Source: Siphonodentalium dalli (taxonomy: Eukaryota > Mollusca > Scaphopoda > Gadilida > Siphonodentaliidae). Taken from it: a DNA stretch of 64,000 bases. The notes beneath the pieces were generated by a model. That model saw only the letters and a list, made by a program, of their open reading frames with translations, made no database searches and had not been told where the DNA came from. A program made the translations under genes and the position numbers. Shown piece after piece: positions 1 to 54,937 of this stretch (position 1 is its first letter; each line of letters starts with the position of its first letter). The DNA lies in the NCBI GenBank assembly GCA_032622095.1, contig CP136063.1, positions 65,425,897 to 65,489,896 on the forward strand, read 5' to 3'.

Positions 1-247
1 TTCCCAACTATTAATTCTTTTATTTAGGAAGGGACGTTCCCATCATTGGCAACGACATGGACAAATTTCCACCAAAATTTCCCCAGTAGATCAACCATCT
101 TCAGATACAGTGGGGTTAAAATAACCATGATTGCTGGGGAACGAGAACAAAGAAATGTGTAAAATCAGTTTTATTTAGCATAGATATGACACAGCTTCAC
201 GCAGAGGTAGTAGGAATTACATAGGGTCATGTTTGCACATCTCTTAA

Positions 248-697
248 GGTTAGAAGGAACTAAATAAGTAGAATTACGTCCCTTTCGTTTTTACAGGGTA
301 TCTCGAATACGAGTTTAAAAAATTCTGGCGCGCGATTGGCGTATAATATGTCAAATAATTTTACAAATTCAAGAAATATAATACCCATAGCATGTAAAAA
401 CGTGGGCGTTTCCTAGTCTGAAATGCGTTCGTGTCCAAACAATGGCGGGATATTGAGGCTGTGTATTGGCTTTCGTCAGACTGTCAAATTCTGTGCAAAA
501 AGTGGGGTAGTGTGGAAAACATATGCTGGTTTTTAAAAAAGGCGTGGCTCGAAAGGTACTCCTATGTGCGAACAGATTCCGAAAGGGTTGGTCTTTACGA
601 ACGCATGCATCGTGCACTTCGGAACTCGAAAATTCAGCGTGGGCGTGGTCAAACGTTAACACTGTGGCCTATGGAAAACATTTAGTTCCTTCTAACC
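248..697. mobile_element. 450-bp MITE in satellite A, copy 1 (PIF/Harbinger-like)
   Basis: The ends are perfect 18-bp inverted repeats: GGTTAGAAGGAACTAAAT at 248-265 and its complement at 680-697. The trinucleotide TAA stands directly outside both ends (245-247 and 698-700), and short monomers have a single TAA at the same place, so the boundaries are defined to the base. A 3-bp TAA/TTA target duplication is the hallmark of PIF/Harbinger transposons; the superfamily call rests on that and is an inference. At 450 bp it is too short for a transposase, and its antisense 97-codon frame has no recognisable domain, so it is non-autonomous. This copy has C instead of T in AAAATTCAGCG near 634. Confidence 0.9.
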
Positions 698-1588
698 TAA
701 AGCAGAAAAATCGAATTTTTCGTATTTCGGCTTATGATGGACAAAGGTGGTGAAAAATCACATAATTGTGATCTGATTTGCGAAGCATACATAGTTAGAC
801 ATTACATTACGCCAGAATTTGGATTTTATTGCCATTTTTCAGGAAGTGGGGAATATTTGCACCTAATAACCTTAGTGAGATTTTCATTTATTTATCGTTA
901 TTCTGTATCTGGTGTGCCACTTTAAGAGAGAAATAACCTCACATCGATATCTTTATCTATTTGTGGACATCTGACCATCAGCATAAACTTGATGTCTCGA
1001 GTATTTTTAACCATGCAGCTGCCAACTTGTCGACCACTTGGAAATTCCTATCTTCCTGATGCAAGGGGGGTGGGGTGTAAAAATCTAACTATTTATTCAG
1101 AAACCCGGACAATTTTGGTCAACTAAGCATATCATCTGAAACATGATTGGCACGTATTGTCTATGCCGCTATATACATGCGCTTCATGCCCATTAAAGGC
1201 ACCTTCTGTTAGTTTAATTACCAAATTTTACCAAAATTTCCACATATTTTAAGAATTTTCCCAAATATGGCAAATCTCGGCATGAGATGACCCCGAGACA
1301 CCCATAATTTTTTATGTTGAACTGCAGACAGTACTGATCAATTCCCAACTATTAATTCTTTTATTTAGGAAGGGACGTTCCCATCATTGGCAACGACATG
1401 GACAAATTTCCACCAAAATTTCCCCAGTAGATCAACCATCTTCAGATACAGTGGGGTTAAAATAACCATGATTGCTGGGGAACGAGAACAAAGAAATGTG
1501 TAAAAACAGTTTTATTTAGCATAGATATGACACAGCTTCACGCAGAGGTAGTAGGAATTACATAGGGTCATGTTTGCACATCTCTTAA

Positions 1589-2038
1589 GGTTAGAAGGAA
1601 CTAAATAAGTAGAATTACGTCCCTTTCGTTTTTACAGGGTATCTCGAATACGAGTTTAAAAAATTCTGGCGCGCGATTGGCGTATAATATGTCAAATAAT
1701 TTTACAAATTCAAGAAATATAATACCCATAGCATGTAAAAACGTGGGCGTTTCCTAGTCTGAAATGCGTTCGTGTCCAAACAATGGCGGGATATTGAGGC
1801 TGTGTATTGGCTTTCGTCAGACTGTCAAATTCTGTGCAAAAAGTGGGGTAGTGTGGAAAACATATGCTGGTTTTTAAAAAAGGCGTGGCTCGAAAGGTAC
1901 TCCTATGTGCGAACAGATTCCGAAAGGGTTGGTCTTTACGAACGCATGCATCGTGCACTTCGGAACTCGAAAATTTAGCGTGGGCGTGGTCAAACGTTAA
2001 CACTGTGGCCTATGGAAAACATTTAGTTCCTTCTAACC
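1589..2038. mobile_element. MITE in satellite A, copy 2
   Basis: Same 450-bp element at the same site in monomer 1342-2682, with intact terminal inverted repeats and TAA on both sides. Confidence 0.9.
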
Positions 2039-2929
2039 TAAAGCAGAAAAATCGAATTTTTCGTATTTCGGCTTATGATGGACAAAGGTGGTGAAAAATC
2101 ACATAATTGTGATCTGATTTGCGAAGCATACATAGTTAGACATTACATTACGCCAGAATTTGGATTTTATTGCCATTTTTCAGGAAGTGGGGAATATTTG
2201 CACCTAATAACCTTAGTGAGATTTTCATTTATTTATCGTTATTCTGTATCTGGTGTGCCACTTTAAGAGAGAAATAACCTCACATCGATATCTTTATCTA
2301 TTTGTGGACATCTGACCATCAGCATAAACTTGATGTCTCGAGTATTTTTAACCATGCAGCTGCCAACTTGTCGACCACTTGGAAATTCCTATCTTCCTGG
2401 TGCAAGGGGGGTGGGGTGTAAAAATCTAACTATTTATTCAGAAACCCGGACAATTTTGGTCAACTAAGCATATCATCTGAAACATGATTTGCACGTATTG
2501 TCTATGCCGCTATATACATGCGCTTCATGCCCATTAAAGGCACCTTCTGTTATTTTAATTACCAAATTTTACCAAAATTTCCACATATTTTAAGAATTTT
2601 CCCAAATATGGCAAATCTCGGCATGAGATGACCCCGAGACACCCATAATTTTTTATGTTGAACTGCAGACAGTACTGATCAATTCCCAACTATTAATTCT
2701 TTTATTTAGGAAGGGACGTTCCCATCATTGGCAACGACATGGACAAATTTCCACCAAAATTTCCCCAGTAGATCAACCATCTTCAGATACAGTGGGGTTA
2801 AAATAACCATGATTGCTGGGGAACGAGAACAAAGAAATGTGTAAAATCAGTTTTATTTAGCATAGATATGACACAGCTTCACGCAGAGGTAGTAGGAATT
2901 ACATAGGGTCATGTTTGCACATCTCTTAA

Positions 2930-3379
2930 GGTTAGAAGGAACTAAATAAGTAGAATTACGTCCCTTTCGTTTTTACAGGGTATCTCGAATACGAGTTTAA
3001 AAAATTCTGGCGCGCGATTGGCGTATAATATGTCAAATAATTTTACAAATTCAAGAAATATAATACCCATAGCATGTAAAAACGTGGGCGTTTCCTAGTC
3101 TGAAATGCGTTCGTGTCCAAACAATGGCGGGATATTGAGGCTGTGTATTGGCTTTCGTCAGACTGTCAAATTCTGTGCAAAAAGTGGGGTAGTGTGGAAA
3201 ACATATGCTGGTTTTTAAAAAAGGCGTGGCTCGAAAGGTACTCCTATGTGCGAACAGATTCCGAAAGGGTTGGTCTTTACGAACGCATGCATCGTGCACT
3301 TCGGAACTCGAAAATTTAGCGTGGGCGTGGTCAAACGTTAACACTGTGGCCTATGGAAAACATTTAGTTCCTTCTAACC
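2930..3379. mobile_element. MITE in satellite A, copy 3
   Basis: Same 450-bp element in monomer 2683-4023. Both 18-bp ends and the flanking TAA are intact. Confidence 0.9.
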
Positions 3380-4023
3380 TAAAGCAGAAAAATCGAATTT
3401 TTCGTATTTCGGCTTATGATGGACAAAGGTTGTGAAAAATCACATAATTGTGATCTGATTTGCGAAGCATACATAGTTAGACATTACATTACGCCAGAAT
3501 TTGGATTTTATTGCCATTTTTCAGGAAGTGGGGAATATTTGCACCTAATAACCTTAGTGAGATTTTCATTTATTTATCGTTATTCTGTATCTGGTGTGCC
3601 ACTTTAAGAGAGAAATAACCTCACATCGATATCTTTATCTATTTGTGGACATCTGACCATCAGCATAAACTTGATGTCTCGAGTATTTTTAACCATGCAG
3701 CTGCCAACTTGTCGACCACTTGGAAATTCCTATCTTCCTGATGCAAGGGGGGTGGGGTGTAAAAATCTAACTATTTATTCAGAAACCCGGACAATTTTGG
3801 TCAACTAAGCATATCATCTGAAACATGATTTGCACGTATTGTCTATGCCGCTATATACATGCGCTTCATGCCCATTAAAGGCACCTTCTGTTAGTTTAAT
3901 TACCAAATTTTACCAAAATTTCCACATATTTTAAGAATTTTCCCAAATATGGCAAATCTCGGCATGAGATGACCCCGAGACACCCATAATTTTTTATGTT
4001 GAACTGCAGACAGTACTGATCAA

Positions 4024-4911
4024 TTCCCAACTATTAATTCTTTTATTTAGGAAGGGACGTTCCCATCATTGGCAACGACATGGACAAATTTCCACCAAAA
4101 TTTCCCCAGTAGATCAACCATCTTCAGATACAGTGGGGTTAAAATAACCATGATTGCTGGGGAACGAGAACAAAGAAATGTGTAAAATCAGTTTTATTTA
4201 GCATAGATATGACACAGCTTCACGCAGAGGTAGTAGGAATTACATAGGGTCATGTTTGCACATCTCTTAAAGCAGAAAAATCGAATTTTTCGTATTTCGG
4301 CTTATGATGGACAAAGGTGGTGAAAAATCACATAATTGTGATCTGATTTGCGAAGCATACATAGTTAGACATTACATTACGCCAGAATTTGGATTTTATT
4401 GCCATTTTTCAGGAAGTGGGGAATATTTGCACCTAATAACCTTAGTGAGATTTTCATTTATTTATCGTTATTCTGTATCTGGTGTGCCACTTTAAGAGAG
4501 AAATAACCTCACATCGATATCTTTATCTATTTGTGGACATCTGACCATCAGCATAAACTTGATGTCTCGAGTATTTTTAACCATGCAGCTGCCAACTTGT
4601 CGACCACTTGGAAATTCCTATCTTCCTGATGCAAGGGGGGTGGGGTGTAAAAATCTAACTATTTATTCAGAAACCCGGACAATTTTGGTCAACTAAGCAT
4701 ATCATCTGAAACATGATTTGCACGTATTGTCTATGCCGCTATATACATGCGCTTCATGCCCATTAAAGGCACCTTCTGTTAGTTTAATTACCAAATTTTA
4801 CCAAAATTTCCACATATTTTAAGAATTTTCCCAAATATGGCAAATCTCGGCATGAGATGACCCCGAGACACCCATAATTTTTTATGTTGAACTGCAGACA
4901 GTACTGATCAA
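4024..4911 (+). repeat. Short satellite A monomer with empty MITE site
   Basis: This 888-bp unit reads CTCTTAAAGCAG where long units read CTCTTAA, the 450-bp element, then TAAAGCAG. One TAA is left at 4268-4270. The unit is therefore either the state before insertion or a precise excision. It carries T at the diagnostic GATT(G/T)GCACG position, unlike the other four short monomers, which carry G. Confidence 0.93.
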
Positions 4912-5158
4912 TTCCCAACTATTAATTCTTTTATTTAGGAAGGGACGTTCCCATCATTGGCAACGACATGGACAAATTTCCACCAAAATTTCCCCAGTAG
5001 ATCAACCATCTTCAGATACAGTGGGGTTAAAATAACCATGATTGCTGGGGAACGAGAACAAAGAAATGTGTAAAATCAGTTTTATTTAGCATAGATATGA
5101 CACAGCTTCACGCAGAGGTAGTAGGAATTACATAGGGTCATGTTTGCACATCTCTTAA

Positions 5159-5608
5159 GGTTAGAAGGAACTAAATAAGTAGAATTACGTCCCTTTCGTT
5201 TTTACAGGGTATCTCGAATACGAGTTTAAAAAATTCTGGCGCGCGATTGGCGTATAATATGTCAAATAATTTTACAAATTCAAGAAATATAATACCCATA
5301 GCATGTAAAAACGTGGGCGTTTCCTAGTCTGAAATGCGTTCGTGTCCAAACAATGGCGGGATATTGAGGCTGTGTATTGGCTTTCGTCAGACTGTCAAAT
5401 TCTGTGCAAAAAGTGGGGTAGTGTGGAAAACATATGCTGGTTTTTAAAAAAGGCGTGGCTCGAAAGGTACTCCTATGTGCGAACAGATTCCGAAAGGGTT
5501 GGTCTTTACGAACGCATGCATCGTGCACTTCGGAACTCGAAAATTTAGCGTGGGCGTGGTCAAACGTTAACACTGTGGCCTATGGAAAACATTTAGTTCC
5601 TTCTAACC
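5159..5608. mobile_element. MITE in satellite A, copy 4
   Basis: Same 450-bp element in monomer 4912-6252, with ends and TAA duplication intact. Confidence 0.9.
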
Positions 5609-6499
5609 TAAAGCAGAAAAATCGAATTTTTCGTATTTCGGCTTATGATGGACAAAGGTGGTGAAAAATCACATAATTGTGATCTGATTTGCGAAGCATA
5701 CATAGTTAGACATTACATTACGCCAGAATTTGGATTTTATTGCCATTTTTCAGGAAGTGGGGAATATTTGCACCTAATAACCTTAGTGAGATTTTCATTT
5801 ATTTATCGTTATTCTGTATCTGGTGTGCCACTTTAAGAGAGAAATAACCTCACATCGATATCTTTATCTATTTGTGGACATCTGACCATCAGCATAAACT
5901 TGATGTCTCGAGTATTTTTAACCATGCAGCTGCCAACTTGTCGACCACTTGGAAATTCCTATCTTCCTGATGCAAGGGGGGTGGGGTGTAAAAATCTAAC
6001 TATTTATTCAGAAACCCGGACAATTTTGGTCAACTAAGCATATCATCTGAAACATGATTGGCACGTATTGTCTATGCCGCTATATACATGCGCTTCATGC
6101 CCATTAAAGGCACCTTCTGTTAGTTTAATTACCAAATTTTACCAAAATTTCCACATATTTTAAGAATTTTCCCAAATATGGCAAATCTCGGCATGAGATG
6201 ACCCCGAGACACCCATAATTTTTTATGTTGAACTGCAGACAGTACTGATCAATTCCCAACTATTAATTCTTTTATTTAGGAAGGGACGTTCCCATCATTG
6301 GCAACGACATGGACAAATTTCCACCAAAATTTCCCCAGTAGATCAACCATCTTCAGATACAGTGGGGTTAAAATAACCATGATTGCTGGGGAACGAGAAC
6401 AAAGAAATGTGTAAAATCAGTTTTATTTAGCATAGATATGACACAGCTTCACGCAGAGGTAGTAGGAATTACATAGGGTCATGTTTGCACATCTCTTAA

Positions 6500-6949
6500 G
6501 GTTAGAAGGAACTAAATAAGTAGAATTACGTCCCTTTCGTTTTTACAGGGTATCTCGAATACGAGTTTAAAAAATTCTGGCGCGCGATTGGCGTATAATA
6601 TGTCAAATAATTTTACAAATTCAAGAAATATAATACCCATAGCATGTAAAAACGTGGGCGTTTCCTAGTCTGAAATGCGTTCGTGTCCAAACAATGGCGG
6701 GATATTGAGGCTGTGTATTGGCTTTCGTCAGACTGTCAAATTCTGTGCAAAAAGTGGGGTAGTGTGGAAAACATATGCTGGTTTTTAAAAAAGGCGTGGC
6801 TCGAAAGGTACTCCTATGTGCGAACAGATTCCGAAAGGGTTGGTCTTTACGAACGCATGCATCGTGCACTTCGGAACTCGAAAATTTAGCGTGGGCGTGG
6901 TCAAACGTTAACACTGTGGCCTATGGAAAACATTTAGTTCCTTCTAACC
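6500..6949. mobile_element. MITE in satellite A, copy 5
   Basis: Same 450-bp element in monomer 6253-7593, with ends and TAA duplication intact. Confidence 0.9.
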
Positions 6950-7593
6950 TAAAGCAGAAAAATCGAATTTTTCGTATTTCGGCTTATGATGGACAAAGGT
7001 GGTGAAAAATCACATAATTGTGATCTGATTTGCGAAGCATACATAGTTAGACATTACATTACGCCAGAATTTGGATTTTATTGCCATTTTTCAGGAAGTG
7101 GGGAATATTTGCACCTAATAACCTTAGTGAGATTTTCATTTATTTATCGTTATTCTGTATCTGGTGTGCCACTTTAAGAGAGAAATAACCTCACATCGAT
7201 ATCTTTATCTATTTGTGGACATCTGACCATCAGCATAAACTTGATGTCTCGAGTATTTTTAACCATGCAGCTGCCAACTTGTCGACCACTTGGAAATTCC
7301 TATCTTCCTGATGCAAGGGGGGTGGGGTGTAAAAATCTAACTATTTATTCAGAAACCCGGACAATTTTGGTCAACTAAGCATATCATCTGAAACATGATT
7401 TGCACGTATTGTCTATGCCGCTATATACATGCGCTTCATGCCCATTAAAGGCACCTTCTGTTAGTTTAATTACCAAATTTTACCAAAATTTCCACATATT
7501 TTAAGAATTTTCCCAAATATGGCAAATCTCGGCATGAGATGACCCCGAGACACCCATAATTTTTTATGTTGAACTGCAGACAGTACTGATCAA

Positions 7594-8481
7594 TTCCCAA
7601 CTATTAATTCTTTTATTTAGGAAGGGACGTTCCCATCATTGGCAACGACATGGACAAATTTCCACCAAAATTTCCCCAGTAGATCAACCATCTTCAGATA
7701 CAGTGGGGTTAAAATAACCATGATTGCTGGGGAACGAGAACAAAGAAATGTGTAAAATCAGTTTTATTTAGCATAGATATGACACAGCTTCACGCAGAGG
7801 TAGTAGGAATTACATAGGGTCATGTTTGCACATCTCTTAAAGCAGAAAAATCGAATTTTTCGTATTTCGGCTTATGATGGACAAAGGTGGTGAAAAATCA
7901 CATAATTGTGATCTGATTTGCGAAGCATACATAGTTAGACATTACATTACGCCAGAATTTGGATTTTATTGCCATTTTTCAGGAAGTGGGGAATATTTGC
8001 ACCTAATAACCTTAGTGAGATTTTCATTTATTTATCGTTATTCTGTATCTGGTGTGCCACTTTAAGAGAGAAATAACCTCACATCGATATCTTTATCTAT
8101 TTGTGGACATCTGACCATCAGCATAAACTTGATGTCTCGAGTATTTTTAACCATGCAGCTGCCAACTTGTCGACCACTTGGAAATTCCTATCTTCCTGAT
8201 GCAAGGGGGGTGGGGTGTAAAAATCTAACTATTTATTCAGAAACCCGGACAATTTTGGTCAACTAAGCATATCATCTGAAACATGATTGGCACGTATTGT
8301 CTATGCCGCTATATACATGCGCTTCATGCCCATTAAAGGCACCTTCTGTTAGTTTAATTACCAAATTTTACCAAAATTTCCACATATTTTAAGAATTTTC
8401 CCAAATATGGCAAATCTCGGCATGAGATGACCCCGAGACACCCATAATTTTTTATGTTGAACTGCAGACAGTACTGATCAA
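7594..8481 (+). repeat. Short satellite A monomer with empty MITE site
   Basis: 888-bp unit with a single TAA at 7838-7840 where the element sits in long units. It carries G at the diagnostic GATT(G/T)GCACG position. Confidence 0.93.
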
Positions 8482-8728
8482 TTCCCAACTATTAATTCTT
8501 TTATTTAGGAAGGGACGTTCCCATCATTGGCAACGACATGGACAAATTTCCACCAAAATTTCCCCAGTAGATCAACCATCTTCAGATACAGTGGGGTTAA
8601 AATAACCATGATTGCTGGGGAACGAGAACAAAGAAATGTGTAAAATCAGTTTTATTTAGCATAGATATGACACAGCTTCACGCAGAGGTAGTAGGAATTA
8701 CATAGGGTCATGTTTGCACATCTCTTAA

Positions 8729-9178
8729 GGTTAGAAGGAACTAAATAAGTAGAATTACGTCCCTTTCGTTTTTACAGGGTATCTCGAATACGAGTTTAAA
8801 AAATTCTGGCGCGCGATTGGCGTATAATATGTCAAATAATTTTACAAATTCAAGAAATATAATACCCATAGCATGTAAAAACGTGGGCGTTTCCTAGTCT
8901 GAAATGCGTTCGTGTCCAAACAATGGCGGGATATTGAGGCTGTGTATTGGCTTTCGTCAGACTGTCAAATTCTGTGCAAAAAGTGGGGTAGTGTGGAAAA
9001 CATATGCTGGTTTTTAAAAAAGGCGTGGCTCGAAAGGTACTCCTATGTGCGAACAGATTCCGAAAGGGTTGGTCTTTACGAACGCATGCATCGTGCACTT
9101 CGGAACTCGAAAATTTAGCGTGGGCGTGGTCAAACGTTAACACTGTGGCCTATGGAAAACATTTAGTTCCTTCTAACC
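8729..9178. mobile_element. MITE in satellite A, copy 6
   Basis: Same 450-bp element in monomer 8482-9825. The element is intact, but the monomer shows extra bases downstream (an added C near 9512, an added G in the G-run near 9546). Confidence 0.9.
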
Positions 9179-10074
9179 TAAAGCAGAAAAATCGAATTTT
9201 TCGTATTTCGGCTTATGATGGACAAAGGTGGTGAAAAATCACATAATTGTGATCTGATTTGCGAAGCATACATAGTTAGACATTACATTACGCCAGAATT
9301 TGGATTTTATTGCCATTTTTCAGGAAGTGGGGAATATTTGCACCTAATAACCTTAGTGAGATTTTCATTTATTTATCGTTATTCTGTATCTGGTGTGCCA
9401 CTTTAAGAGAGAAATAACCTCACATCGATATCTTTATCTATTTGTGGACATCTGACCATCAGCATAAACTTGATGTCTCGAGTATTTTTAACCATGCAGC
9501 TGCCAACTTGTCCGACCACTTGGAAATTCCTATCTTCCTGATGCAAGGGGGGGTGGGGTGTAAAAATCTAACTATTTATTCAGAAACCCGGACAATTTTG
9601 GTCAACTAAGCATATCATCTGAAACATGATTTGCACGTATTGTCTATGCCGCTATATACATGCGCTTCATGCCCATTAAAGGCACCTTCTGTTAGTTTAA
9701 TTACCAAATTTTACCAAAATTTCCACATATTTTAAGAATTTTCCCAAATATGGCAAATCTCGGCATGAGATGACCCCGAGACACCCATAATTTTTTATGT
9801 TGAACTGCAGGACAGTACTGATCAATTCCCAACTATTAATTCTTTTATTTAGGAAGGGACGTTCCCATCATTGGCAAACGACATGGACAAATTTCCACCA
9901 AAATTTCCCCAGTAGATCAACCATCTTCAGATACAGTGGGGTTAAAATAACCATGATTGCTGGGGAACGAGAACAAAGAAATGTGTAAAAATCAGTTTTA
10001 TTTAGCATAGATATGACACAGCTTCACGCAGAGGTAGTAGGAATTACATAGGGTCATGTTTGCACATCTCTTAA

Positions 10075-10525
10075 GGTTAGAAGGAACTAAATAAGTAGAA
10101 TTACGTCCCTTTCGTTTTTACAGGGTATCTCGAATACGAGTTTAAAAAATTCTGGCGCGCGATTGGCGTATAATATGTCAAATAATTTTACAAATTCAAG
10201 AAATATAATACCCATAGCATGTAAAAAACGTGGGCGTTTCCTAGTCTGAAATGCGTTCGTGTCCAAACAATGGCGGGATATTGAGGCTGTGTATTGGCTT
10301 TCGTCAGACTGTCAAATTATGTGCAAAAAGTGGGGTAGTGTGGAAAACATATGCTGGTTTTTAAAAAAGGCGTGGCTCGAAAGGTACTCCTATGTGCGAA
10401 CAGATTCCGAAAGGGTTGGTCTTTACGAACGCATGCATCGTGCACTTCGGAACTCGAAAATTTAGCGTGGGCGTGGTCAAACGTTAACACTGTGGCCTAT
10501 GGAAAACATTTAGTTCCTTCTAACC
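10075..10525. mobile_element. MITE in satellite A, copy 7
   Basis: Same element in monomer 9826-11171, 451 bp because of one extra A in the A-run before CGTGGGCG. Ends and TAA duplication are intact. Confidence 0.88.
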
Positions 10526-11419
10526 TAAAGCAGAAAAATCGAATTTTTCGTATTTCGGCTTATGATGGACAAAGGTGGTGAAAAATCACATAATTGTGAT
10601 CTGATTTGCGAAGCATACATAGTTAGACATTACATTACGCCAGAATTTGGATTTTATTGCCATTTTTTCAGGAAGTGGGGAATATTTGCACCTAATAACC
10701 TTAGTGAGATTTTCATTTATTTATCGTTATTCTGTATCTGGTGTGCCACTTTAAGAGAGAAATAACCTCACATCGATATCTTTATCTATTTGTGGACATC
10801 TGACCATCAGCATAAACTTGATGTCTCGAGTATTTTTAACCATGCAGCTGCCAACTTGTCGACCACTTGGAAATTCCTATCTTCCTGATGCAAGGGGGGT
10901 GGGGTGTAAAAATCTAACTATTTATTCAGAAACCCGGACAATTTTGGTCAACTAAGCATATCATCTGAAACATGATTGGCACGTATTGTCTATGCCGCTA
11001 TATACATGCGCTTCATGCCCATTAAAGGCACCTTCTGTTAGTTTAATTACCAAATTTTACCAAAATTTCCACATATTTTAAGAATTTTCCCAAATATGGC
11101 AAATCTCGGCATGAGATGACCCCGAGACACCCATAATTTTTTATGTTGAACTGCAGACAGTACTGATCAATTTCCCAACTATTAATTCTTTTATTTAGGA
11201 AGGGACGTTCCCATCATTGGCAACGACATGGACAAATTTCCACCAAAATTTCCCCAGTAGATCAACCATCTTCAGATACAGTGGGGGTTAAAATAACCAT
11301 GATTGCTGGGGAACGAGAACAAAGAAATGTGTAAAATCAGTTTTATTTAGCATAGATATGACACAGCTTCACGCAGAGGTAGTAGGAATTACATAGGGTC
11401 ATGTTTGCACATCTCTTAA

Positions 11420-11871
11420 GGTTAGAAGGAACTAAATAAGTAGAATTACGTCCCTTTCGTTTTTACAGGGTATCTCGAATACGAGTTTAAAAAATTCTGG
11501 CGCGCGATTGGCGTATAATATGTCAAATAATTTTACAAATTCAAGAAATATAATACCCATAGCATGTAAAAACGTGGGCGTTTCCTAGTCCTGAAATGCG
11601 TTCGTGTCCAAACAATGGCGGGATATTGAGGCTGTGTATTGGCTTTCGTCAGACTGTCAAATTCTGTGCAAAAAGTGGGGTAGTGTGGAAAACATATGCT
11701 GGTTTTAAAAAAAGGCGTGGCTCGAAAGGTACTCCTATGTGCGAACAGATTCCGAAAGGGTTGGTCTTTACGAACGCATGCATCGTGCACTTCGGAACTC
11801 GAAAATTTAGCGTGGGCGTGGTCAAACGTTAACACTGTGGCCTATGGAAAAACATTTAGTTCCTTCTAACC
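11420..11871. mobile_element. MITE in satellite A, copy 8
   Basis: Same element in monomer 11172-12515, 452 bp because of single-base additions (for example TAGTCCTGAAATG near 11590). Ends and TAA duplication are intact. Confidence 0.88.
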
Positions 11872-12515
11872 TAAAGCAGAAAAATCGAATTTTTCGTATT
11901 TCGGCTTATGATGGACAAAGGTGGTGAAAAATCACATAATTGTGATCTGATTTGCGAAGCATACATAGTTAGACATTACATTACGCCAGAATTTGGATTT
12001 TATTGCCATTTTTCAGGAAGTGGGGAATATTTGCACCTAATAACCTTAGTGAGATTTTCATTTATTTATCGTTATTCTGTATCTGGTGTGCCACTTTAAG
12101 AGAGAAATAACCTCACATCGATATCTTTATCTATTTGTGGACATCTGACCATCAGCATAAACTTGATGTCTCGAGTATTTTTAACCATGCAGCTGCCAAC
12201 TTGTCGACCACTTGGAAATTCCTATCTTCCTGATGCAAGGGGGGTGGGGTGTAAAAATCTAACTATTTATTCAGAAACCCGGACAATTTTGGTCAACTAA
12301 GCATATCATCTGAAACATGATTTGCACGTATTGTCTATGCCGCTATATACATGCGCTTCATGCCCATTAAAGGCACCTTCTGTTAGTTTAATTACCAAAT
12401 TTTACCAAAATTTCCACATATTTTAAGAATTTTCCCAAATATGGCAAATCTCGGCATGAGATGACCCCGAGACACCCATAATTTTTTATGTTGAACTGCA
12501 GACAGTACTGATCAA

Positions 12516-13403
12516 TTCCCAACTATTAATTCTTTTATTTAGGAAGGGACGTTCCCATCATTGGCAACGACATGGACAAATTTCCACCAAAATTTCCCCA
12601 GTAGATCAACCATCTTCAGATACAGTGGGGTTAAAATAACCATGATTGCTGGGGAACGAGAACAAAGAAATGTGTAAAATCAGTTTTATTTAGCATAGAT
12701 ATGACACAGCTTCACGCAGAGGTAGTAGGAATTACATAGGGTCATGTTTGCACATCTCTTAAAGCAGAAAAATCGAATTTTTCGTATTTCGGCTTATGAT
12801 GGACAAAGGTGGTGAAAAATCACATAATTGTGATCTGATTTGCGAAGCATACATAGTTAGACATTACATTACGCCAGAATTTGGATTTTATTGCCATTTT
12901 TCAGGAAGTGGGGAATATTTGCACCTAATAACCTTAGTGAGATTTTCATTTATTTATCGTTATTCTGTATCTGGTGTGCCACTTTAAGAGAGAAATAACC
13001 TCACATCGATATCTTTATCTATTTGTGGACATCTGACCATCAGCATAAACTTGATGTCTCGAGTATTTTTAACCATGCAGCTGCCAACTTGTCGACCACT
13101 TGGAAATTCCTATCTTCCTGATGCAAGGGGGGTGGGGTGTAAAAATCTAACTATTTATTCAGAAACCCGGACAATTTTGGTCAACTAAGCATATCATCTG
13201 AAACATGATTGGCACGTATTGTCTATGCCGCTATATACATGCGCTTCATGCCCATTAAAGGCACCTTCTGTTAGTTTAATTACCAAATTTTACCAAAATT
13301 TCCACATATTTTAAGAATTTTCCCAAATATGGCAAATCTCGGCATGAGATGACCCCGAGACACCCATAATTTTTTATGTTGAACTGCAGACAGTACTGAT
13401 CAA
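12516..13403 (+). repeat. Short satellite A monomer with empty MITE site
   Basis: 888-bp unit with a single TAA at 12760-12762. It carries G at the diagnostic GATT(G/T)GCACG position. Confidence 0.93.
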
Positions 13404-13651
13404 TTCCCAACTATTAATTCTTTTATTTAGGAAGGGGACGTTCCCATCATTGGCAACGACATGGACAAATTTCCACCAAAATTTCCCCAGTAGATCAACC
13501 ATCTTCAGATACAGTGGGGTTAAAATAACCATGATTGCTGGGGAACGAGAACAAAGAAATGTGTAAAATCAGTTTTATTTAGCATAGATATGACACAGCT
13601 TCACGCAGAGGTAGTAGGAATTACATAGGGTCATGTTTGCACATCTCTTAA

Positions 13652-14102
13652 GGTTAGAAGGAACTAAATAAGTAGAATTACGTCCCTTTCGTTTTTACAG
13701 GGTATCTCGAATACGAGTTTAAAAAATTCTGGCGCGCGATTGGCGTATAATATGTCAAATAATTTTACAAATTCAAGAAATATAATACCCATAGCATGTA
13801 AAAAACGTGGGCGTTTCCTAGTCTGAAATGCGTTCGTGTCCAAACAATGGCGGGATATTGAGGCTGTGTATTGGCTTTCGTCAGACTGTCAAATTCTGTG
13901 CAAAAAGTGGGGTAGTGTGGAAAACATATGCTGGTTTTTAAAAAAGGCGTGGCTCGAAAGGTACTCCTATGTGCGAACAGATTCCGAAAGGGTTGGTCTT
14001 TACGAACGCATGCATCGTGCACTTCGGAACTCGAAAATTTAGCGTGGGCGTGGTCAAACGTTAACACTGTGGCCTATGGAAAACATTTAGTTCCTTCTAA
14101 CC
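13652..14102. mobile_element. MITE in satellite A, copy 9
   Basis: Same element in monomer 13404-14748, 451 bp with one added A. Ends and TAA duplication are intact. Confidence 0.88.
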
Positions 14103-14995
14103 TAAAGCAGAAAAATCGAATTTTTCGTTATTTCGGCTTATGATGGACAAAGGTGGTGAAAAAATCACATAATTGTGATCTGATTTGCGAAGCATACATA
14201 GTTAGACATTACATTACGCCAGAATTTGGATTTTATTGCCATTTTTCAGGAAGTGGGGAATATTTGCACCTAATAACCTTAGTGAGATTTTCATTTATTT
14301 ATCGTTATTCTGTATCTGGTGTGCCACTTTAAGAGAGAAATAACCTCACATCGATATCTTTATCTATTTGTGGACATCTGACCATCAGCATAAACTTGAT
14401 GTCTCGAGTATTTTTAACCATGCAGCTGCCAACTTGTCGACCACTTGGAAATTCCTATCTTCCTGATGCAAGGGGGGTGGGGTGTAAAAATCTAACTATT
14501 TATTCAGAAACCCGGACAATTTTGGTCAACTAAGCATATCATCTGAAACATGATTTGCACGTATTGTCTATGCCGCTATATACATGCGCTTCATGCCCAT
14601 TAAAGGCACCTTCTGTTAGTTTAATTACCAAATTTTACCAAAATTTCCACATATTTTAAGAATTTTCCCAAATATGGCAAATCTCGGCATGAGATGACCC
14701 CGAGACACCCATAATTTTTTATGTTGAACTGCAGACAGTACTGATCAATTCCCAACTATTAATTCTTTTATTTAGGAAGGGACGTTCCCATCATTGGCAA
14801 CGACATGGACAAATTTCCACCAAAATTTCCCCAGTAGATCAACCATCTTCAGATACAGTGGGGTTAAAATAACCATGATTGCTGGGGAACGAGAACAAAG
14901 AAATGTGTAAAATCAGTTTTATTTAGCATAGATATGACACAGCTTCACGCAGAGGTAGTAGGAATTACATAGGGTCATGTTTGCACATCTCTTAA

Positions 14996-15450
14996 GGTTA
15001 GAAGGAACTAAATAAGTAGAATTACGTCCCTTTCGTTTTTACAGGGTATCTCGAATACGAGTTTAAAAAATTCTGGCGCGCGATTGGCGTATAATATGTC
15101 CAAATAATTTTACAAATTCAAGAAATATAATACCCATAGCATGTAAAAAACGTGGGCGTTTCCTAGTCTGAAATGCGTTCGTGTCCAAACAATGGCGGGA
15201 TATTGAGGCTGTGTATTGGCTTTCGTCAGACTGTCAAATTATGTGCAAAAAAGTGGGGTAGTGTGGAAAACATATGCTGGTTTTTAAAAAAGGCGTGGCT
15301 CGAAAGGTACTCCTATGTGCGAACAGATTCCGAAAGGGTTGGTCCTTTACGAAACGCATGCATCGTGCACTTCGGAACTCGAAAATTTAGCGTGGGCGTG
15401 GTCAAACGTTAACACTGTGGCCTATGGAAAACATTTAGTTCCTTCTAACC
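14996..15450. mobile_element. MITE in satellite A, copy 10
   Basis: Same element in monomer 14749-16100, 455 bp. Several one-base additions (GTCCAAATAA near 15100, GGTCCTTTACGAAACG near 15345) make it the most error-like copy. The terminal repeats are intact. Confidence 0.87.
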
Positions 15451-16100
15451 TAAAGCAGAAAAATCGAATTTTTCGTATTTCGGCTTATGATGGACAAAGG
15501 TGGTGAAAAAATCACATAATTGTGATCTGATTTGCGAAGCATACATAGTTAGGACATTACATTACGCCAGAATTTGGATTTTATTGCCATTTTTTCAGGA
15601 AGTGGGGAATATTTGCACCTAATAACCTTAGTGAGATTTTCATTTATTTATCGTTATTCTGTATCTGGTGTGCCACTTTAAGAGAGAAATAACCTCACAT
15701 CGATATCTTTATCTATTTGTGGACATCTGACCATCAGCATAAACTTGATGTCTCGAGTATTTTTAACCATGCAGCTGCCAACTTGTCGACCACTTGGAAA
15801 TTCCTATCTTCCTGATGCAAGGGGGGTGGGGGTGTAAAAATCTAACTATTTATTCAGAAACCCGGACAATTTTGGTCAACTAAGCATATCATCTGAAACA
15901 TGATTTGCACGTATTGTCTATGCCGCTATATACATGCGCTTCATGCCCATTAAAGGCACCTTCTGTTAGTTTTAATTACCAAATTTTACCAAAATTTCCA
16001 CATATTTTAAGAATTTTCCCAAATATGGCAAATCTCGGCATGAGATGACCCCGAGGACACCCATAATTTTTTATGTTGAACTGCAGACAGTACTGATCAA

Positions 16101-16990
16101 TTCCCAACTATTAATTCTTTTATTTAGGAAGGGACGTTCCCATCATTGGCAACGACATGGACAAATTTCCACCAAAATTTCCCCAGTAGATCAACCATCT
16201 TCAGATACAGTGGGGTTAAAATAACCATGATTGCTGGGGAACGAGAACAAAGAAATGTGTAAAATCAGTTTTATTTAGCATAGATATGACACAGCTTCAC
16301 GCAGAGGTAGTAGGAATTACATAGGGTCCATGTTTGCACATCTCTTAAAGCAGAAAAATCGAATTTTTCGTATTTCGGCTTATGATGGACAAAGGTGGTG
16401 AAAAATCACATAATTGTGATCTGATTTGCGAAGCATACATAGTTAGACATTACATTACGCCAGAATTTGGATTTTATTGCCATTTTTCAGGAAGTGGGGA
16501 ATATTTGCACCTAATAACCTTAGTGAGATTTTCATTTATTTATCGTTATTCTGTATCTGGTGTGCCACTTTAAGAGAGAAATAACCTCACATCGATATCT
16601 TTATCTATTTGTGGACATCTGACCATCAGCATAAACTTGATGTCTCGAGTATTTTTAACCATGCAGCTGCCAACTTGTCGACCACTTGGAAATTCCTATC
16701 TTCCTGATGCAAGGGGGGGTGGGGTGTAAAAATCTAACTATTTATTCAGAAACCCGGACAATTTTGGTCAACTAAGCATATCATCTGAAACATGATTGGC
16801 ACGTATTGTCTATGCCGCTATATACATGCGCTTCATGCCCATTAAAGGCACCTTCTGTTAGTTTAATTACCAAATTTTACCAAAATTTCCACATATTTTA
16901 AGAATTTTCCCAAATATGGCAAATCTCGGCATGAGATGACCCCGAGACACCCATAATTTTTTATGTTGAACTGCAGACAGTACTGATCAA
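16101..16990 (+). repeat. Short satellite A monomer with empty MITE site
   Basis: 890-bp unit with a single TAA at 16346-16348 and two one-base additions. It carries G at the diagnostic GATT(G/T)GCACG position. Confidence 0.92.
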
Positions 16991-17237
16991 TTCCCAACTA
17001 TTAATTCTTTTATTTAGGAAGGGACGTTCCCATCATTGGCAACGACATGGACAAATTTCCACCAAAATTTCCCCAGTAGATCAACCATCTTCAGATACAG
17101 TGGGGTTAAAATAACCATGATTGCTGGGGAACGAGAACAAAGAAATGTGTAAAATCAGTTTTATTTAGCATAGATATGACACAGCTTCACGCAGAGGTAG
17201 TAGGAATTACATAGGGTCATGTTTGCACATCTCTTAA

Positions 17238-17687
17238 GGTTAGAAGGAACTAAATAAGTAGAATTACGTCCCTTTCGTTTTTACAGGGTATCTCGAATAC
17301 GAGTTTAAAAAATTCTGGCGCGCGATTGGCGTATAATATGTCAAATAATTTTACAAATTCAAGAAATATAATACCCATAGCATGTAAAAACGTGGGCGTT
17401 TCCTAGTCTGAAATGCGTTCGTGTCCAAACAATGGCGGGATATTGAGGCTGTGTATTGGCTTTCGTCAGACTGTCAAATTCTGTGCAAAAAGTGGGGTAG
17501 TGTGGAAAACATATGCTGGTTTTAAAAAAAGGCGTGGCTCGAAAGGTACTCCTATGTGCGAACAGATTCCGAAAGGGTTGGTCTTTACGAACGCATGCAT
17601 CGTGCACTTCGGAACTCGAAAATTTAGCGTGGGCGTGGTCAAACGTTAACACTGTGGCCTATGGAAAACATTTAGTTCCTTCTAACC
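17238..17687. mobile_element. MITE in satellite A, copy 11
   Basis: Same 450-bp element in monomer 16991-18334. The T-run/A-run after GCTGG differs by one base from early copies (TTTTAAAAAAAGG instead of TTTTTAAAAAAGG), a variant shared with copy 8. Confidence 0.9.
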
Positions 17688-18334
17688 TAAAGCAGAAAAA
17701 TCGAATTTTTCGTATTTCGGCTTATGATGGACAAAGGTGGTGAAAAATCACATAATTGTGATCTGATTTGCGAAGCATACATAGTTAGACATTACATTAC
17801 GCCAGAATTTGGATTTTATTGCCATTTTTCAGGAAGTGGGGAATATTTGCACCTAATAACCTTAGTGAGATTTTCATTTATTTATCGTTATTCTGTATCT
17901 GGTGTGCCACTTTAAGAGAGAAATAACCTCACATCGATATCTTTATCTATTTGTGGACATCTGACCATCAGCATAAACTTGATGTCTCGAGTATTTTTAA
18001 CCATGCAGCTGCCAACTTGTCGACCACTTGGAAATTCCTATCTTCCTGATGCAAGGGGGGTGGGGTGTAAAAAATCTAACTATTTATTCAGAAACCCGGA
18101 CAATTTTGGTCAACTAAGCATATCATCTGAAACATGATTTGCACGTATTGTCTATGCCGCTATATACATGCGCTTCATTGCCCATTAAAGGCACCTTCTG
18201 TTAGTTTAATTACCAAATTTTACCAAAATTTCCACATATTTTAAGAATTTTCCCAAATATGGCAAATCTCGGCATGAGATGACCCCGAGACACCCATAAT
18301 TTTTTATGTTGAACTGCAGACAGTACTGATTCAA

Positions 18335-19226
18335 TTCCCAACTATTAATTCTTTTATTTAGGAAGGGACGTTCCCATCATTGGCAACGACATGGACAAAT
18401 TTCCACCAAAATTTCCCCAGTAGATCAACCATCTTCAGATACAGTGGGGTTAAAATAACCATGATTGCTGGGGAACGAGAACAAAGAAATGTGTAAAATC
18501 AGTTTTATTTAGCATAGATATGACACAGCTTCACGCAGAGGTAGTAGGAATTACATAGGGTCATGTTTGCACATCTCTTAAAGCAGAAAAATCGAATTTT
18601 TCGTATTTCGGCTTATGATGGACAAAGGGTGGTGAAAAATCACATAATTGTGATCTGATTTGCGAAGCATACATAGTTAGACATTACATTACGCCAGAAT
18701 TTGGATTTTATTGCCATTTTTCAGGAAGTGGGGAATATTTGCACCTAATAACCTTAGTGAGATTTTCATTTATTTATCGTTATTCTGTATCTGGTGTGCC
18801 ACTTTAAGAGAGAAATAACCTCACATCGATATCTTTATCTATTTGTGGGACATCTGACCATCAGCATAAACTTGATGTCTCGAGTATTTTTAACCATGCA
18901 GCTGCCAACTTGTCGACCACTTGGAAATTCCTATCTTCCTGATGCAAGGGGGGTGGGGTGTAAAAATCTAACTATTTATTCAGAAACCCGGGACAATTTT
19001 GGTCAACTAAGCATATCATCTGAAACATGATTGGCACGTATTGTCTATGCCGCTATATACATGCGCTTCATGCCCATTAAAGGCACCTTCTGTTAGTTTA
19101 ATTACCAAATTTTACCAAAATTTCCACATATTTTAAGAATTTTTCCCAAATATGGCAAATCTCGGCATGAGATGACCCCGAGACACCCATAATTTTTTAT
19201 GTTGAACTGCAGACAGTACTGATCAA
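18335..19226 (+). repeat. Short satellite A monomer with empty MITE site
   Basis: 892-bp unit with a single TAA at 18579-18581 and several one-base additions (for example GTGGGACATCTG near 18847, CCCGGGACAATT near 18990). It carries G at the diagnostic position. Confidence 0.92.
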
Positions 19227-19475
19227 TTCCCAACTATTAATTCTTTTATTTAGGAAGGGACGTTCCCCATCATTGGCAACGACATGGACAAATTTCCACC
19301 AAAATTTCCCCAGTAGATCAACCATCTTCAGATACAGTGGGGTTAAAATAACCATGATTGCTGGGGAACGAGAACAAAGAAATGTGTAAAATCAGTTTTA
19401 TTTAGCATAGATATGGACACAGCTTCACGCAGAGGTAGTAGGAATTACATAGGGTCATGTTTGCACATCTCTTAA

Positions 19476-19515
19476 GGTTAGAAGGAACTAAATAAGTAGA
19501 ATTACGTCCCTTTCG
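19476..19515. mobile_element. MITE in satellite A, copy 12 (cut by the gap)
   Basis: The first 40 bases of the element follow the TAA in monomer 19227 onward; the rest is lost in the run of N. It shows that the last visible monomer is of the long type. Confidence 0.85.
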
Positions 19516-19615
19516 NNNNNNNNNNNNNNNNNNNNNNNNNNNNNNNNNNNNNNNNNNNNNNNNNNNNNNNNNNNNNNNNNNNNNNNNNNNNNNNNNNNNN
19601 NNNNNNNNNNNNNNN
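19516..19615. other. Assembly gap (100 N)
   Basis: Exactly 100 undetermined bases, a common convention for a gap of unknown length. The left side is inside satellite A. The right side starts inside a reversed copy of the beginning of satellite B, so the true junction between the two satellites is not seen. Confidence 0.99.
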
Positions 19616-19935
19616 GGTCACACTGTCTACACATATGCATCAACTAATTGTTCCCGGGATCAAAGTAGGCATATATACCAAATTTGAGTGGGATCGGTCA
19701 AGGTCCAGAAACATGCCTAGATGAGCATATATGAGAGAGGTCAAGGTCAAGGACGCGATCGCATGTGAAATTTGACCCACCTGTATTGTTCCCGGGATCA
19801 AAGTATGCCTACATATTAAATTTTAGTCGGATCGGTCGAGGTCCAGAAACATGCCTATATGAGCATATATGAGCGAGGTCAAGGTCAAGGCTAATGTCGG
19901 GACTAGTGCTGAGCTCGTTCTGATAAGTCTGGGCT
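19616..19935 (-). repeat. Left arm of a large inverted repeat
   Basis: This 320-bp arm is the reverse complement, with scattered mismatches, of 21716-22034. It starts at the gap with GGTCACACTGTCTACACATA, the reversed first bases of satellite B. Inside the arm a block of about 138 bp occurs twice, starting near 19647 and 19785, each with ATTGTTCCCGGGATCAAAG at its head and AGGTCAAGGTCAAGG near its end. The two blocks have diverged clearly. The arms would let a single strand fold into a hairpin with a 1.8-kb loop. Confidence 0.92.

Positions 19936-20442
<507 letters not shown>

Positions 20443-21648: not shown

Positions 21649-21715
<67 letters not shown>
21649..21715. repeat. (TA)n microsatellite
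   Basis: Perfect TA run of 67 bases directly abutting the right arm of the inverted repeat. Confidence 0.97.
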
Positions 21716-21716
<1 letters not shown>

Positions 21717-22034
21717 CCCCGACTTATCAGAACGAGCTCAGCACTAGTCCCGACATTAGCCTTGACCTTGACCTCGCTCATATATGCTCATATAGGCATG
21801 TTTCTGGACCTCGACCGATCCGACTAAAATTTAATATGTAGGCATAATTTGATCCCGGGAACAATACGGGTGTGTCAAATTTCACATGCGATCGCGTCCT
21901 TGACCTTGACCTCTCTCATATATGCTCATCTAGGCATGTTTCTGGACCTTGACCTATCCCACTCAAATTTGGTATATATGCCTACTTTGATCCCGGGAAC
22001 AATTAGTTGATGCATATGTGTAGACAGTGTGACC
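21716..22034 (+). repeat. Right arm of the large inverted repeat
   Basis: Reverse complement of 19616-19935. It leads without a break into satellite B: GATCCCGGGAACAATTAG at its outer part passes into TTGATGCATATGTGTAGACA, the start of the first 361-bp monomer. It contains the same two diverged sub-blocks as the left arm, in opposite orientation. Confidence 0.92.
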
Positions 22035-22609
22035 TCTGGTAGTGGAAAACCGCTCCACGCAGTTGAAATTTGGTAAAAACAGGTCATCACGGACTTCAAT
22101 ACGTCTATGTACAAACCCGAACATTATCGCTATTATGGCCCGTTTTTAGGGCTCCTAGACACCCCACACGCATAACCCACGAACATAACAGGTATGTCAT
22201 TGTGGTCGACACATCAGCCCTAATTACAATTTATCCCCACGCAGCTGGATTTCTAGAGCACGAGGTCAGCACGGGTCCCGACATATTCTTCGTGATTTCA
22301 TATAAATTGGCATTTCTACCTAATTTCGAGGTACCAGGACACTCTACAGAGATATCCCTCCACATTAGTTGATGCATATTTGTATAGAGTGTGACCGCTG
22401 GTAGTGGAAAACCAGCCACGCAGTTGAAATTTGGCAAAAGCAGGTCATCACGGAATTCAATACTTCTATGTACAAACCGAACATGATCCCTATTATGGCC
22501 CGTTTTTAGGGCTCCAGGACACCACACAGGCATAACCCACGAATATAGCAGGTATGTCATTGTGGTCAACACATCAGCCCTAATTACAATTTAACCCCAC
22601 GCAGCTGAA

Positions 22610-25490
22610 TTTCTAGAGCACGAGGTCAGCACGGGTCCCGACATATTCGTCGTGATTTCATATAAATTGGCATTTCTACCTAATTTCGAGGTACCAGGAC
22701 ACTCTACAGAGATATCCCTCCACATTAGTTGATGCATATGTGTAGAGAGTGTGACCGCTGGTAGTGGAAAACCACCCCACGCAGTTGAAATTTGGTAAAA
22801 ACAGGTCATCACGGACTTCAATACGTCTATGTACAAACCGAACATTATCGCTATATTATGGCCCGTTTTTAGGGCTCCAGGACACCACGCACGCATAACC
22901 CACGAACATATCAGGCATGTCATTGTGGTCAACACATCATCCCTATTTACAATTTAACCCCACGCAGCTGGATTTCTAGAGCACGAGGTCAGCACGGGTC
23001 CCGACATATTCGTCGTGATTTCATATAAATTGGCATTAAAACCTAATTTCGAGGTACCAGGACACTCTACAGAGATATCCCACCACATTAGTTGATGCAT
23101 ATGTGTAGAGAGTGTGACCGCTGGTAGTGGAAAACCACCCCACGCAGTTGAAATTTGGTAAAAACAGGTCATCACGGACTTCAATACGTCTATGTACAAA
23201 CCGAACATTATCGCTATTATGGCCCGTTTTTAGGGCTCCAGGACACCACACACGCATAACCCACGAACATATCAGGCATGTCATTGTGGTCAACACATCA
23301 TCCCTATTTACAATTTAACCCCACGCAGCTGGATTTCTAGAGCACGAGGTCAGCACGGGTCCCGACATATTCGTCGTGATTTCATATAAATTGGCATTTC
23401 TACCTAATTTCGAGGTACCAGGACACTCTACAGAGATAACCCTCCACATTAGTTGATTCATATGTGTAGACAGTGTGACCGCTGGTAGTGTAAAGCCGCC
23501 CCACGCAGTTGAAATTTGGTAAAAACAGGTCATCACGGACTTCAATACGTCTATGTACAAACCGAACATTATCGCTATTATGGCCCGTTTTTAGGGCTCC
23601 AGGACACCACACACGCATAACCCACGAACATATCAGGCATGTCATTGTGGTCAACACATCATCCCTATTTACAATTTAACCCCACGCAGCTGGATTTCTA
23701 GAGCACGAGGTCAGCACGGGTCCCGACATATTCGTCGTGATTTCATATAAATTGGCATTTCTACCTAATTTCGAGGTACCAGGACACTCTACAGAGATAT
23801 CCCTCCACATTAGTTGATGCATATGTGTAGAGAGTGTGACCGCTGGTAGTGGAAAACCACCCCACGCAGTTGAAATTTGGTAAAAACAGGTCATCACGGA
23901 CTTCCATACGTCTATGTACAAACCGAACATTATCGCTAGTATGGCCCGTTTTTAGGGCTCCAGGACACCACACACGCATAACCCACGAACATAACAGGCA
24001 TGTCATTGTGGTCAACACATCATCCCTATTTACAATTTAACCCCACGCAGCTGGATTTCTAGAGCACGAGGTCAGCACGGGTCCCGACATATTCGTCGTG
24101 ATTTCATATAAATTGGCATTTCTACCTAATTTCGAGGTACCAGGACACTCTACAGAGATAACCCTCCACATTAGTTGATTCATATGTGTAGAGAGTGTGA
24201 CCGCTGGTAGTGGAAAACCACCCCACGCAGTTGAAATTTGGTAAAAACAGGTCATCACGGACTTCAATACGTCTATGTACAAACCGAACATTATCGCTAT
24301 ATTATGGCCCGTTTTTAGGGCTCCAGGACACCACGCACGCATAACCCACGAACATGTCAGGCATGTCATTGTGGTCAACACATCATCCCTATTTACAATT
24401 TAACCCCACGCAGCTGGATTTCTAGAGCACGAGGTCAGCACGGGTCCCGACATATTCGTCGTGATTTCATATAAATTGGCATTTCTACCTAATTTCGAGG
24501 TACCAGGACACTCTACAGAGATATCCCTCCACATTAGTTGATGCATATGTGTAGAGAGTGTGACCGCTGGTAGTGGAAAACCACCCCACGCAGTTGAAAT
24601 TTGGTAAAAACAGGTCATCACGGACTTCAATACGTCTATGTACAAACCGAACATTATCGCTATTATGGCCCGTTTTTAGGGCTCCAGGACACCACACACG
24701 CATAACCCACGAACATATCAGGCATGTCATTGTGGTCAACACATCATCCCTATTTACAATTTAACCCCACGCAGCTGGATTTCTAGAGCACGAGTCCCGA
24801 CATATTCGTCGTGATTTCATATAAATTGGCATTTCTACCTAATTTCGAGGTACCAGGACACTCTACAGAGATAACCCTCCACATTAGTTGATTCATATGT
24901 GTAGACAGTGTGACCGCTGGTAGTGTAAAGCCGCCCCACGCAGTTGAAATTTGGTAAAAACAGGTCATCACGGACTTCAATACGTCTATGTACAAACCGA
25001 ACATTATCGCTATTATGGCCCGTTTTTAGGGCTCCAGGACACCACACACGCATAACCCACGAACATATCAGGCATGTCATTGTGGTCAACACATCATCCC
25101 TATTTACAATTTAACCCCACGCAGCTGGATTTCTAGAGCACGAGGTCAGCACGGGTCCCGACATATTCGTCGTGATTTCATATAAATTGGCATTTCTACC
25201 TAATTTCGAGGTACCAGGACACTCTACAGAGATAACCCTCCACATTAGTTGATTCATATGTGTAGACAGTGTGACCGCTGGTAGTGTAAAGCCGCCCCAC
25301 GCAGTTGAAATTTGGTAAAAACAGGTCATCACGGACTTCAATACGTCTATGTACAAACCGAACATTATCGCTATTATGGCCCGTTTTTAGGGCTCCAGGA
25401 CACCACACACGCATAACCCACGAACATATCAGGCATGTCATTGTGGTCAACACATCATCCCTATTTACAATTTAACCCCACGCAGCTGGA
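22610..25490 (+). repeat. Satellite B higher-order repeat 1, copy 1 (2881 bp, 8 monomers)
   Basis: Rare variants recur exactly 2881 bp downstream in the same order: CTATATTATGG at about 22852, GGCATTAAAACC at about 23033, ACTTCCATACG with CGCTAGTATGG near 23900, ACATGTCAGGCATG near 24353, and the 11-bp deletion near 24789. The order of the eight monomer types is the same in both copies. Confidence 0.93.
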
Positions 25491-54935: not shown

Positions 54936-54937
54936 GT

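Follow-up and report, generated by a model that had tools for sequence, protein, structure and literature searches.

Structure of the tandem array

The DNA analysed here is a stretch of 64,000 nucleotides of contig CP136063.1 of the scaphopod mollusc Siphonodentalium dalli (positions 65,425,897 to 65,489,896 of the forward strand; hereafter, the window), and its positions 1–19515 are occupied by 17 tandem monomers, of which 12 carry a 450-bp element and 5 lack it. The monomers start at 1, 1342, 2683, 4024 and onward, and their order along the array is LLLSLLSLLLSLLSLS plus a partial L. Of the 12 long monomers, 11 are complete (about 1341 bp) and one is interrupted at 19515 by a gap; the five short monomers comprise 888–892 bp. 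Long and short monomers of the window differ exactly by the 450-bp element plus TAA. The reference copy of the element (248–697) is 450 bp long, begins with GG and ends with CC, and its inverted ends, with the sequence GGTTAGAAGGAACTAAAT, match at 18 of 18 positions.

In the window, the element is flanked as TTAA-element-TAAA, and the short units read CTCTTAAAGC, with a single TAA. The 12 filled and five empty monomers, the 450-bp element and its 18-bp perfect inverted ends, all named in a preliminary description of the stretch, were thus borne out by the sequence. The same is true of the single TAA in short units; TAA as the target duplication did not hold, the flanks being TTAA and TAAA and the duplication elsewhere being 4 bp. 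Position 19515, taken there as the limit of the array, is an assembly gap and not the array end. The array itself begins about 10 kb upstream of the window, where C3:65415887 coincides exactly with the terminus of an element. Scattered 1-bp insertions are present in the window array beyond about 8.5 kb, and they look like a consequence of poorer assembly consensus there.

Very probably, the array is a non-autonomous composite DNA transposon in multimeric form and most likely represents a new KolobokP family, with the structure (LTDR-INT)n-LTDR; the 450-bp element would be its long terminal direct repeat (LTDR), the core of 888–891 bp its internal region (INT), and the short units would be sites of excised LTDRs. 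The array contains the following features (window positions):

248..697, plus strand: reference copy of the 450-bp LTDR-like element, with perfect inverted ends of 18 bp
698..1588, plus strand: INT (core), the 891-bp internal region separating two elements, TAAA at its start and TTAA at its end
1589..2038, plus strand: 450-bp element, copy 2
2930..3379, plus strand: 450-bp element, copy 3
4264..4273, plus strand: INT-INT junction lacking the element (CTCTTAAAGC), of the excision-scar type with 3 bp missing
5159..5608, plus strand: 450-bp element, copy 4
6500..6949, plus strand: 450-bp element, copy 5
7834..7843, plus strand: INT-INT junction without element
8729..9178, plus strand: 450-bp element, copy 6
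10075..10525, plus strand: 450-bp element, copy 7
11420..11871, plus strand: 450-bp element, copy 8
12756..12765, plus strand: INT-INT junction without element
13652..14102, plus strand: 450-bp element, copy 9
14996..15450, plus strand: 450-bp element, copy 10
16342..16351, plus strand: INT-INT junction without element
17238..17687, plus strand: 450-bp element, copy 11
18575..18584, plus strand: INT-INT junction without element
19476..19515, plus strand: 450-bp element, copy 12, interrupted by the assembly gap
19516..19615, no strand: assembly gap, 100 N, leaving the right array end unassembled

The remaining inter-element intervals of the window array are filled by INT, once or twice over. 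A comparison of 4911 bases with Rfam revealed no RNA gene in the repeat unit (no matches up to E 0.1), and one 102-aa frame of the element gave no Pfam matches up to E 0.01.

Copies of the element outside the satellite

The genome of the window (2.23 Gb, nine contigs) was searched with a pattern of VTAA followed by the 18-bp end, with up to one mismatch allowed. The pattern was found at 478 places and its reversed control at none in the same genome; as one mismatch admits TTAA, many of the 478 places are satellite units. Solo and composite loci were taken from a sample comprising 30 of the 478 pattern places and 30 of 40 scored element matches, and two loci with one end only (L060 and L069) were left out of the solo counts. 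Among the 30 excised pattern loci, 12 full-length copies of the element without an adjoining core were found, with 74–98% identity. Exact 4-bp duplications were found at seven of these 12 copies (CTAA, GTAA, three times ATAA and twice TTAC) and at one of six internally changed solo copies (GCAA). Since the left 3 bp are fixed by the VTAA pattern, the duplication test is a match on the other side, and the chance of a 4-bp match, based on composition, is about 0.005.

The mobility proposed for the element in the preliminary description was confirmed by its true ends and by its copies outside the satellite; the possibility raised there that the segment might never occur outside the satellite was not realized, which favours a genuine element. 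The duplications found at such copies are 4 bp long and not of the TWA type predicted there. A miniature inverted-repeat transposable element (MITE) of the PIF/Harbinger family, the rule for which is a 3-bp TWA target duplication, was considered and rejected, as the duplications are 4 bp long and include TGCT, TGGA and AAGC. An insertion preference for TAA was likewise rejected as an artefact of the VTAA pattern; array-wide duplications show none.

The family is represented by age layers of <1%, about 4% and about 22% divergence, and even the copies diverged by about 22% have the filled junction. Three segments of contig C4 (L047, L048 and L052), about 99% alike, each contain an old element-core fragment (about 78%), which is accordingly part of a larger duplicated segment.

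Array ends and array-wide duplications

Arrays were located by element queries, around the best element matches. The structure element-core-element was found on C5 and C7 and also, by the end pattern, at C1:53.80M; element-core-element-core-element is present on C2 and at C3:38.9M. The C4 array contains nine elements and eight cores, and longer arrays including short units are present on C3 and C8. Filled junctions number 51 in the array at C1:196M and at least 28 in one array on C2, among the first 100 of the 327 filled junctions described below.

All 13 gap-free ends of the arrays sampled with the element query lie at the outer terminus of an element; two further ends are N gaps, and other ends lie beyond the sequence examined. 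Exact 4-bp duplications surround the whole array in five of six complete arrays, namely, AAGC, TGGA, ATAA, TATA and TGCT (binomial p about 2e-11 on composition). Accordingly, array ends at element termini, together with array-wide 4-bp duplications, identify element-core-element and its multimers as the mobile unit. Core-only arrays at C6 and C8:37M, seemingly ending inside the core, were considered as a different type of end, but both ends are 100-N gaps.

In one array, the element has also entered units a second time. At C1:195.95–196.03M, 49 intervals separate the element ends listed, and 10 of them measure 1795 bp (1341+454). The sequence element-TAAA-element was read at one 1795-bp and one 1784-bp place of the C1 array, with TAAAGC directly downstream of the second element at the 1795-bp place. 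The second element adjoins the first, with a 4-bp TAAA duplication (C1:195.95M), and in one further C1 unit 11 bp are lost at the junction.

Filled and empty junctions

The filled junction has the sequence CTCTTAA-element-TAAAGC. Its left side was found in exact form 327 times genome-wide and never with 1–3 bp lost; this left-side search served as the control for indels. Empty junctions are represented by four types, namely, CTCTTAAAGC (TTAAAGC; 175 places genome-wide with up to one mismatch), CTCTTAAGC (TTAAGC; 48 places), CTCTAAAGC (TAAAGC; 26 places) and CTCTGAAGC (TGAAGC; 13 places), the three rarer types together accounting for 87 places. The first three can be read as TTAA-AGC, TTAA-GC and CTC-TAAAGC: TTAAAGC would be left by an element departing with 3 bp, TTAAGC by one taking 4 bp from the downstream tip, and TAAAGC by one taking 4 bp from the upstream tip. 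The three rarer types make up 87 of 262 empty junctions, versus 0 of 327 filled ones with a loss on the left side (Fisher p 2e-35, with co-amplified copies not being independent events). Arrays with one exact empty type are present at C5:252.04M (13 junctions), C4:263.76M (13) and C8:12.54M (6), which argues against sequencing noise.

Given four empty sequences and a left filled side that is never short, most of the short units are probably scars of excision rather than pre-insertion sites. The two possibilities had been set side by side in the preliminary description, and removal of the element from some units is the better reading: the filled junction is found in copies diverged by about 22%, and the empty junctions differ in sequence. 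The empty junction of the type diverged by about 22% gave no matches genome-wide with one narrow pattern.

A tree was built for 66 cores (28 different), with 4 of 25 inner branches starred; its root is formed by three cores diverged by about 4%, all element-flanked. Cores adjoining empty junctions are placed among other cores and are not basal, as they would be if the short monomers preceded the insertion, an arrangement for which a core tree had been suggested earlier as the check. Substitution 623C>T is present in all 24 C8 cores, at filled and empty junctions alike, and 13 cores of the window array are identical to eight cores of the all-filled C4 array. Grouping of cores by array and not by filled/empty state was ruled out, as array membership and state are both clustered, and the tree therefore settles little. 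Clustering of state is what joint amplification of core pairs would produce; it also means that the tree shows no independent losses. The core tree is a weak argument against a basal position of the short units and gives no count of excisions.

Relation to KolobokP

The KolobokP group was described by Kojima and Bao in 2022 (PMC9587614). According to the main text of that paper, its members consist of an internal region between direct repeats at the termini, each about 450 or 660 bp long, and these LTDRs have their own inverted repeats of 11–18 bp with RR..YY ends. Solo LTDRs and multimers occur, usually with target duplications of 3–5 bp, and INT-INT junctions are 3–4 bp short, which is explained there by direct-repeat excision (PMC9587614). 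The autonomous elements code for a transposase together with an I-PpoI-like nuclease; families of the Pacific oyster are 4,022–4,748 bp long, and non-autonomous ones 1,738–3,261 bp. Nuclease-induced unequal exchange with growth of multimers is proposed in the same paper, and the word satellite does not occur in its main text (PMC9587614).

Each structural feature compared has a counterpart in the family described here. LTDR-INT-LTDR corresponds to element-core-element on C1, C5 and C7, with an element of 450 bp, and the inverted repeats match at 18 of 18 positions with GG..CC ends. Duplications within the range of 3–5 bp are exact at 4 bp in five of six composites and 7 of 12 full-length solos. 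Multimers of the form (LTDR-INT)n-LTDR are present, as are INT-INT junctions with a one-sided loss of 3–4 bp (TGAAGC with an added substitution). As compared with KolobokP as far as it is described in print, direct repeats of about 450 bp, inverted ends, solos, multimers, duplications and short INT-INT junctions are shared, whereas INT is short here and contains no long frame; the unit of 1.79 kb is near the low end of the oyster non-autonomous range. Arrays of satellite scale (51 filled junctions, C1:196M) are a further difference from the published elements.

Genes of the nuclease were searched for with PF05551, which is presumably the Pfam family of the I-PpoI-like nuclease. At least 149 matches above the cut-off were found in the genome (among the best 150 of 390 candidates scored), and none in 14 control genomes. 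Many matches are in tandem, with periods mostly of 4.0–4.9 kb and of 6.2 kb on C9, near the Pacific oyster KolobokP lengths. Tandem runs with open nuclease frames are present at C8:164.866–164.898M, C2:178.174–178.206M, C6:79.18M, C3:99.31M and C9:23.15M. These matches, many of them in tandem, indicate that nuclease-bearing KolobokP elements are present in the genome, and the tandem runs are probably multimers of autonomous KolobokP. Places of the element ends were compared with nuclease matches for 100 of the 478 pattern places, the large C1 array entering with its first and last places and the tandem nuclease runs with some of their members. With C or T next to it, the inverted end occurs at 15 places, none near a nuclease match among the places compared. 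KolobokP membership rests on architecture, by which the array family is most likely a new non-autonomous KolobokP family.

Origin of the arrays

LTDR-INT-LTDR and its multimers are inserted between 4-bp target duplications, as seen at five loci, and transposition would be carried out by the enzymes of an autonomous partner. Growth of an array may occur in place: neighbouring direct LTDRs would recombine unequally, so that a composite would grow into a satellite-like array. The transposase of the partner would excise single LTDRs inside the array and leave INT-INT junctions 3–4 bp short, the sequences of which were observed, and the same unequal exchange may spread the short units. Elsewhere, LTDRs are present as solos with 4-bp duplications.

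Several observations weigh against the interpretation as a KolobokP multimer with excised LTDRs. The loci came from element queries, and core-only loci are under-sampled; the C7 array is flanked by TTTT and TATT, with no exact duplication. The search for losses at filled junctions covers the left side, TGAAGC requires an additional substitution, and the types are mixed within the arrays at C1:195.9M, C2:180.7M and C8:13.3M. One-base differences among the empty types could partly be later indels of one ancestral junction, and a shared older TTAAAGC junction retains some probability; junction counts are not independent, as amplified copies repeat one event. On the core tree, the filled/empty state requires 8 changes versus 13.6 after shuffling (a value as low in 0 of 200 cases) and 10.8 after shuffling within arrays (as low in 4 of 200), and the older empty-rich arrays (C6, C8:37M and C8:46M) lie outside this tree. 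No element-end place among those compared is within 150 kb of a nuclease match, the nearest being at 151,695 bp, and no autonomous copy with the same inverted ends is among the loci read.

The dispersed arrays might have arisen not by composite transposition but from circles of LTDR-INT DNA that recombined with solo LTDRs already in place, a route considered unlikely here, although it is proposed in print for KolobokP (PMC9587614). Single duplications around arrays are expected from it too, and the two end elements of the C5 array share no variant. However, end and inner elements of other arrays have variants in common along their length, namely, 118A>T at C3:38.9M (3 of 3), 253C>G on C7 (2 of 2) and 70T>A on C4 (9 of 9; this variant occurs in other arrays too), and the 12 full-length solo copies are older, being 74–98% identical. 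Gene conversion could mask a hybrid end. On balance, the variants shared by end and inner elements at these three loci lean towards composite transposition over circles.

Much less probable is the origin proposed in the preliminary description, namely, capture by a satellite: a MITE would have been inserted once into an older 888-bp satellite, the loaded monomer would have spread, and the short monomers would be unfilled ancestors. The exact difference between filled and empty units of the window by the element plus TAA fits such a history, as do core-only runs with a spacing of about 888 bp (for example, at C8:46.47–46.50M), TTAAAGC as the commonest empty form, present on several contigs, and the clustered filled/empty state on the core tree. 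It is opposed by the sampled array ends, which are element ends with array-wide 4-bp duplications, by the filled form in copies diverged by about 22% alongside the lack of matches to the old-type empty junction with its one narrow pattern, by the three other empty sequences besides TTAAAGC, and by solo copies duplicating 4 bp, not 3; the apparent core-only ends at C6 and C8:37M are N gaps. Assembly or sequencing artefacts, to which the 1-bp insertions scattered through the later half of the window array and N gaps within arrays might point, are scarcely credible as the source of the array structure and the empty-junction variants, as some arrays carry one exact variant throughout, no comparable loss was found beside the 327 filled junctions (left side) and the same structure is present on many contigs.

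For the composite transposon, the direction of the relationship is reversed: the transposon gives rise to the satellite. Homing-nuclease KolobokP elements may even be genome-wide makers of satellites, with nuclease-provoked unequal exchange between LTDRs causing autonomous and non-autonomous copies alike to grow from a single insertion into long arrays, and with arrays releasing solo LTDRs; this broader proposal is put forward tentatively and is more doubtful than not. If true, the satellite would keep supplying new insertions. With hundreds of junctions of a single family, filled and empty, in one genome, scars, array growth and age layers become measurable, and the published idea of nuclease-driven multimer growth, so far untested, becomes testable. 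Arrays of satellite scale and a large set of scars within a known lineage constitute the useful novelty. No description of a satellite of such make was recognised in the literature on MITEs, composite transposons, macrotransposons and satellites, as judged from listings and passages.

Comparison with other systems

Ac of maize belongs to the hAT superfamily. As in Ac macrotransposons, as far as they are described in the passages of PMC9910405, DNA between two transposon ends moves as a unit and leaves a footprint; in contrast to the family described here, the duplications in maize are 8 bp long, and the elements are alleles tracked by phenotype instead of a dispersed repeat family (PMC9910405). 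The topology (LTR-internal)n-LTR of tandem long terminal repeat (LTR) retrotransposons and TRIM/Cassandra arrays is similar, including one pair of duplications per tandem insertion, but LTR arrays, according to the corresponding passages, involve RNA-mediated copying and their end repeats are not transposons themselves (PMC11899658, PMC7215508). Tandem repeats originating from non-autonomous DNA transposons are also represented by Xstir and miDNA4 of Xenopus; as given in part of the review PMC12628747, those repeats originate inside one MITE, whereas here the whole transposon repeats and its end piece is mobile.

Other repeats of the window

Directly after the assembly gap, a 325-bp inverted pair (98%) is present at 19616–19940 and 21710–22034, flanking about 1.8 kb with long TA and AG runs; its right arm enters a second satellite at 22002–38235. 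This satellite comprises 45 copies of a 361-bp unit (95% match) and starts at most 2.4 kb from the gap of the first array. At 54319–54937, an 84-bp tandem repeat was found, the minus strand of which can be read as units resembling C2H2 zinc fingers (E 7e-9 with Pfam zf-H2C2_2, a score under its curated cut-off). The region 52500–63800 contains dense nested inverted repeats, including 57063–57263 versus 58129–58329 (100%) and 57359–57593 versus 57805–58039 (99%).

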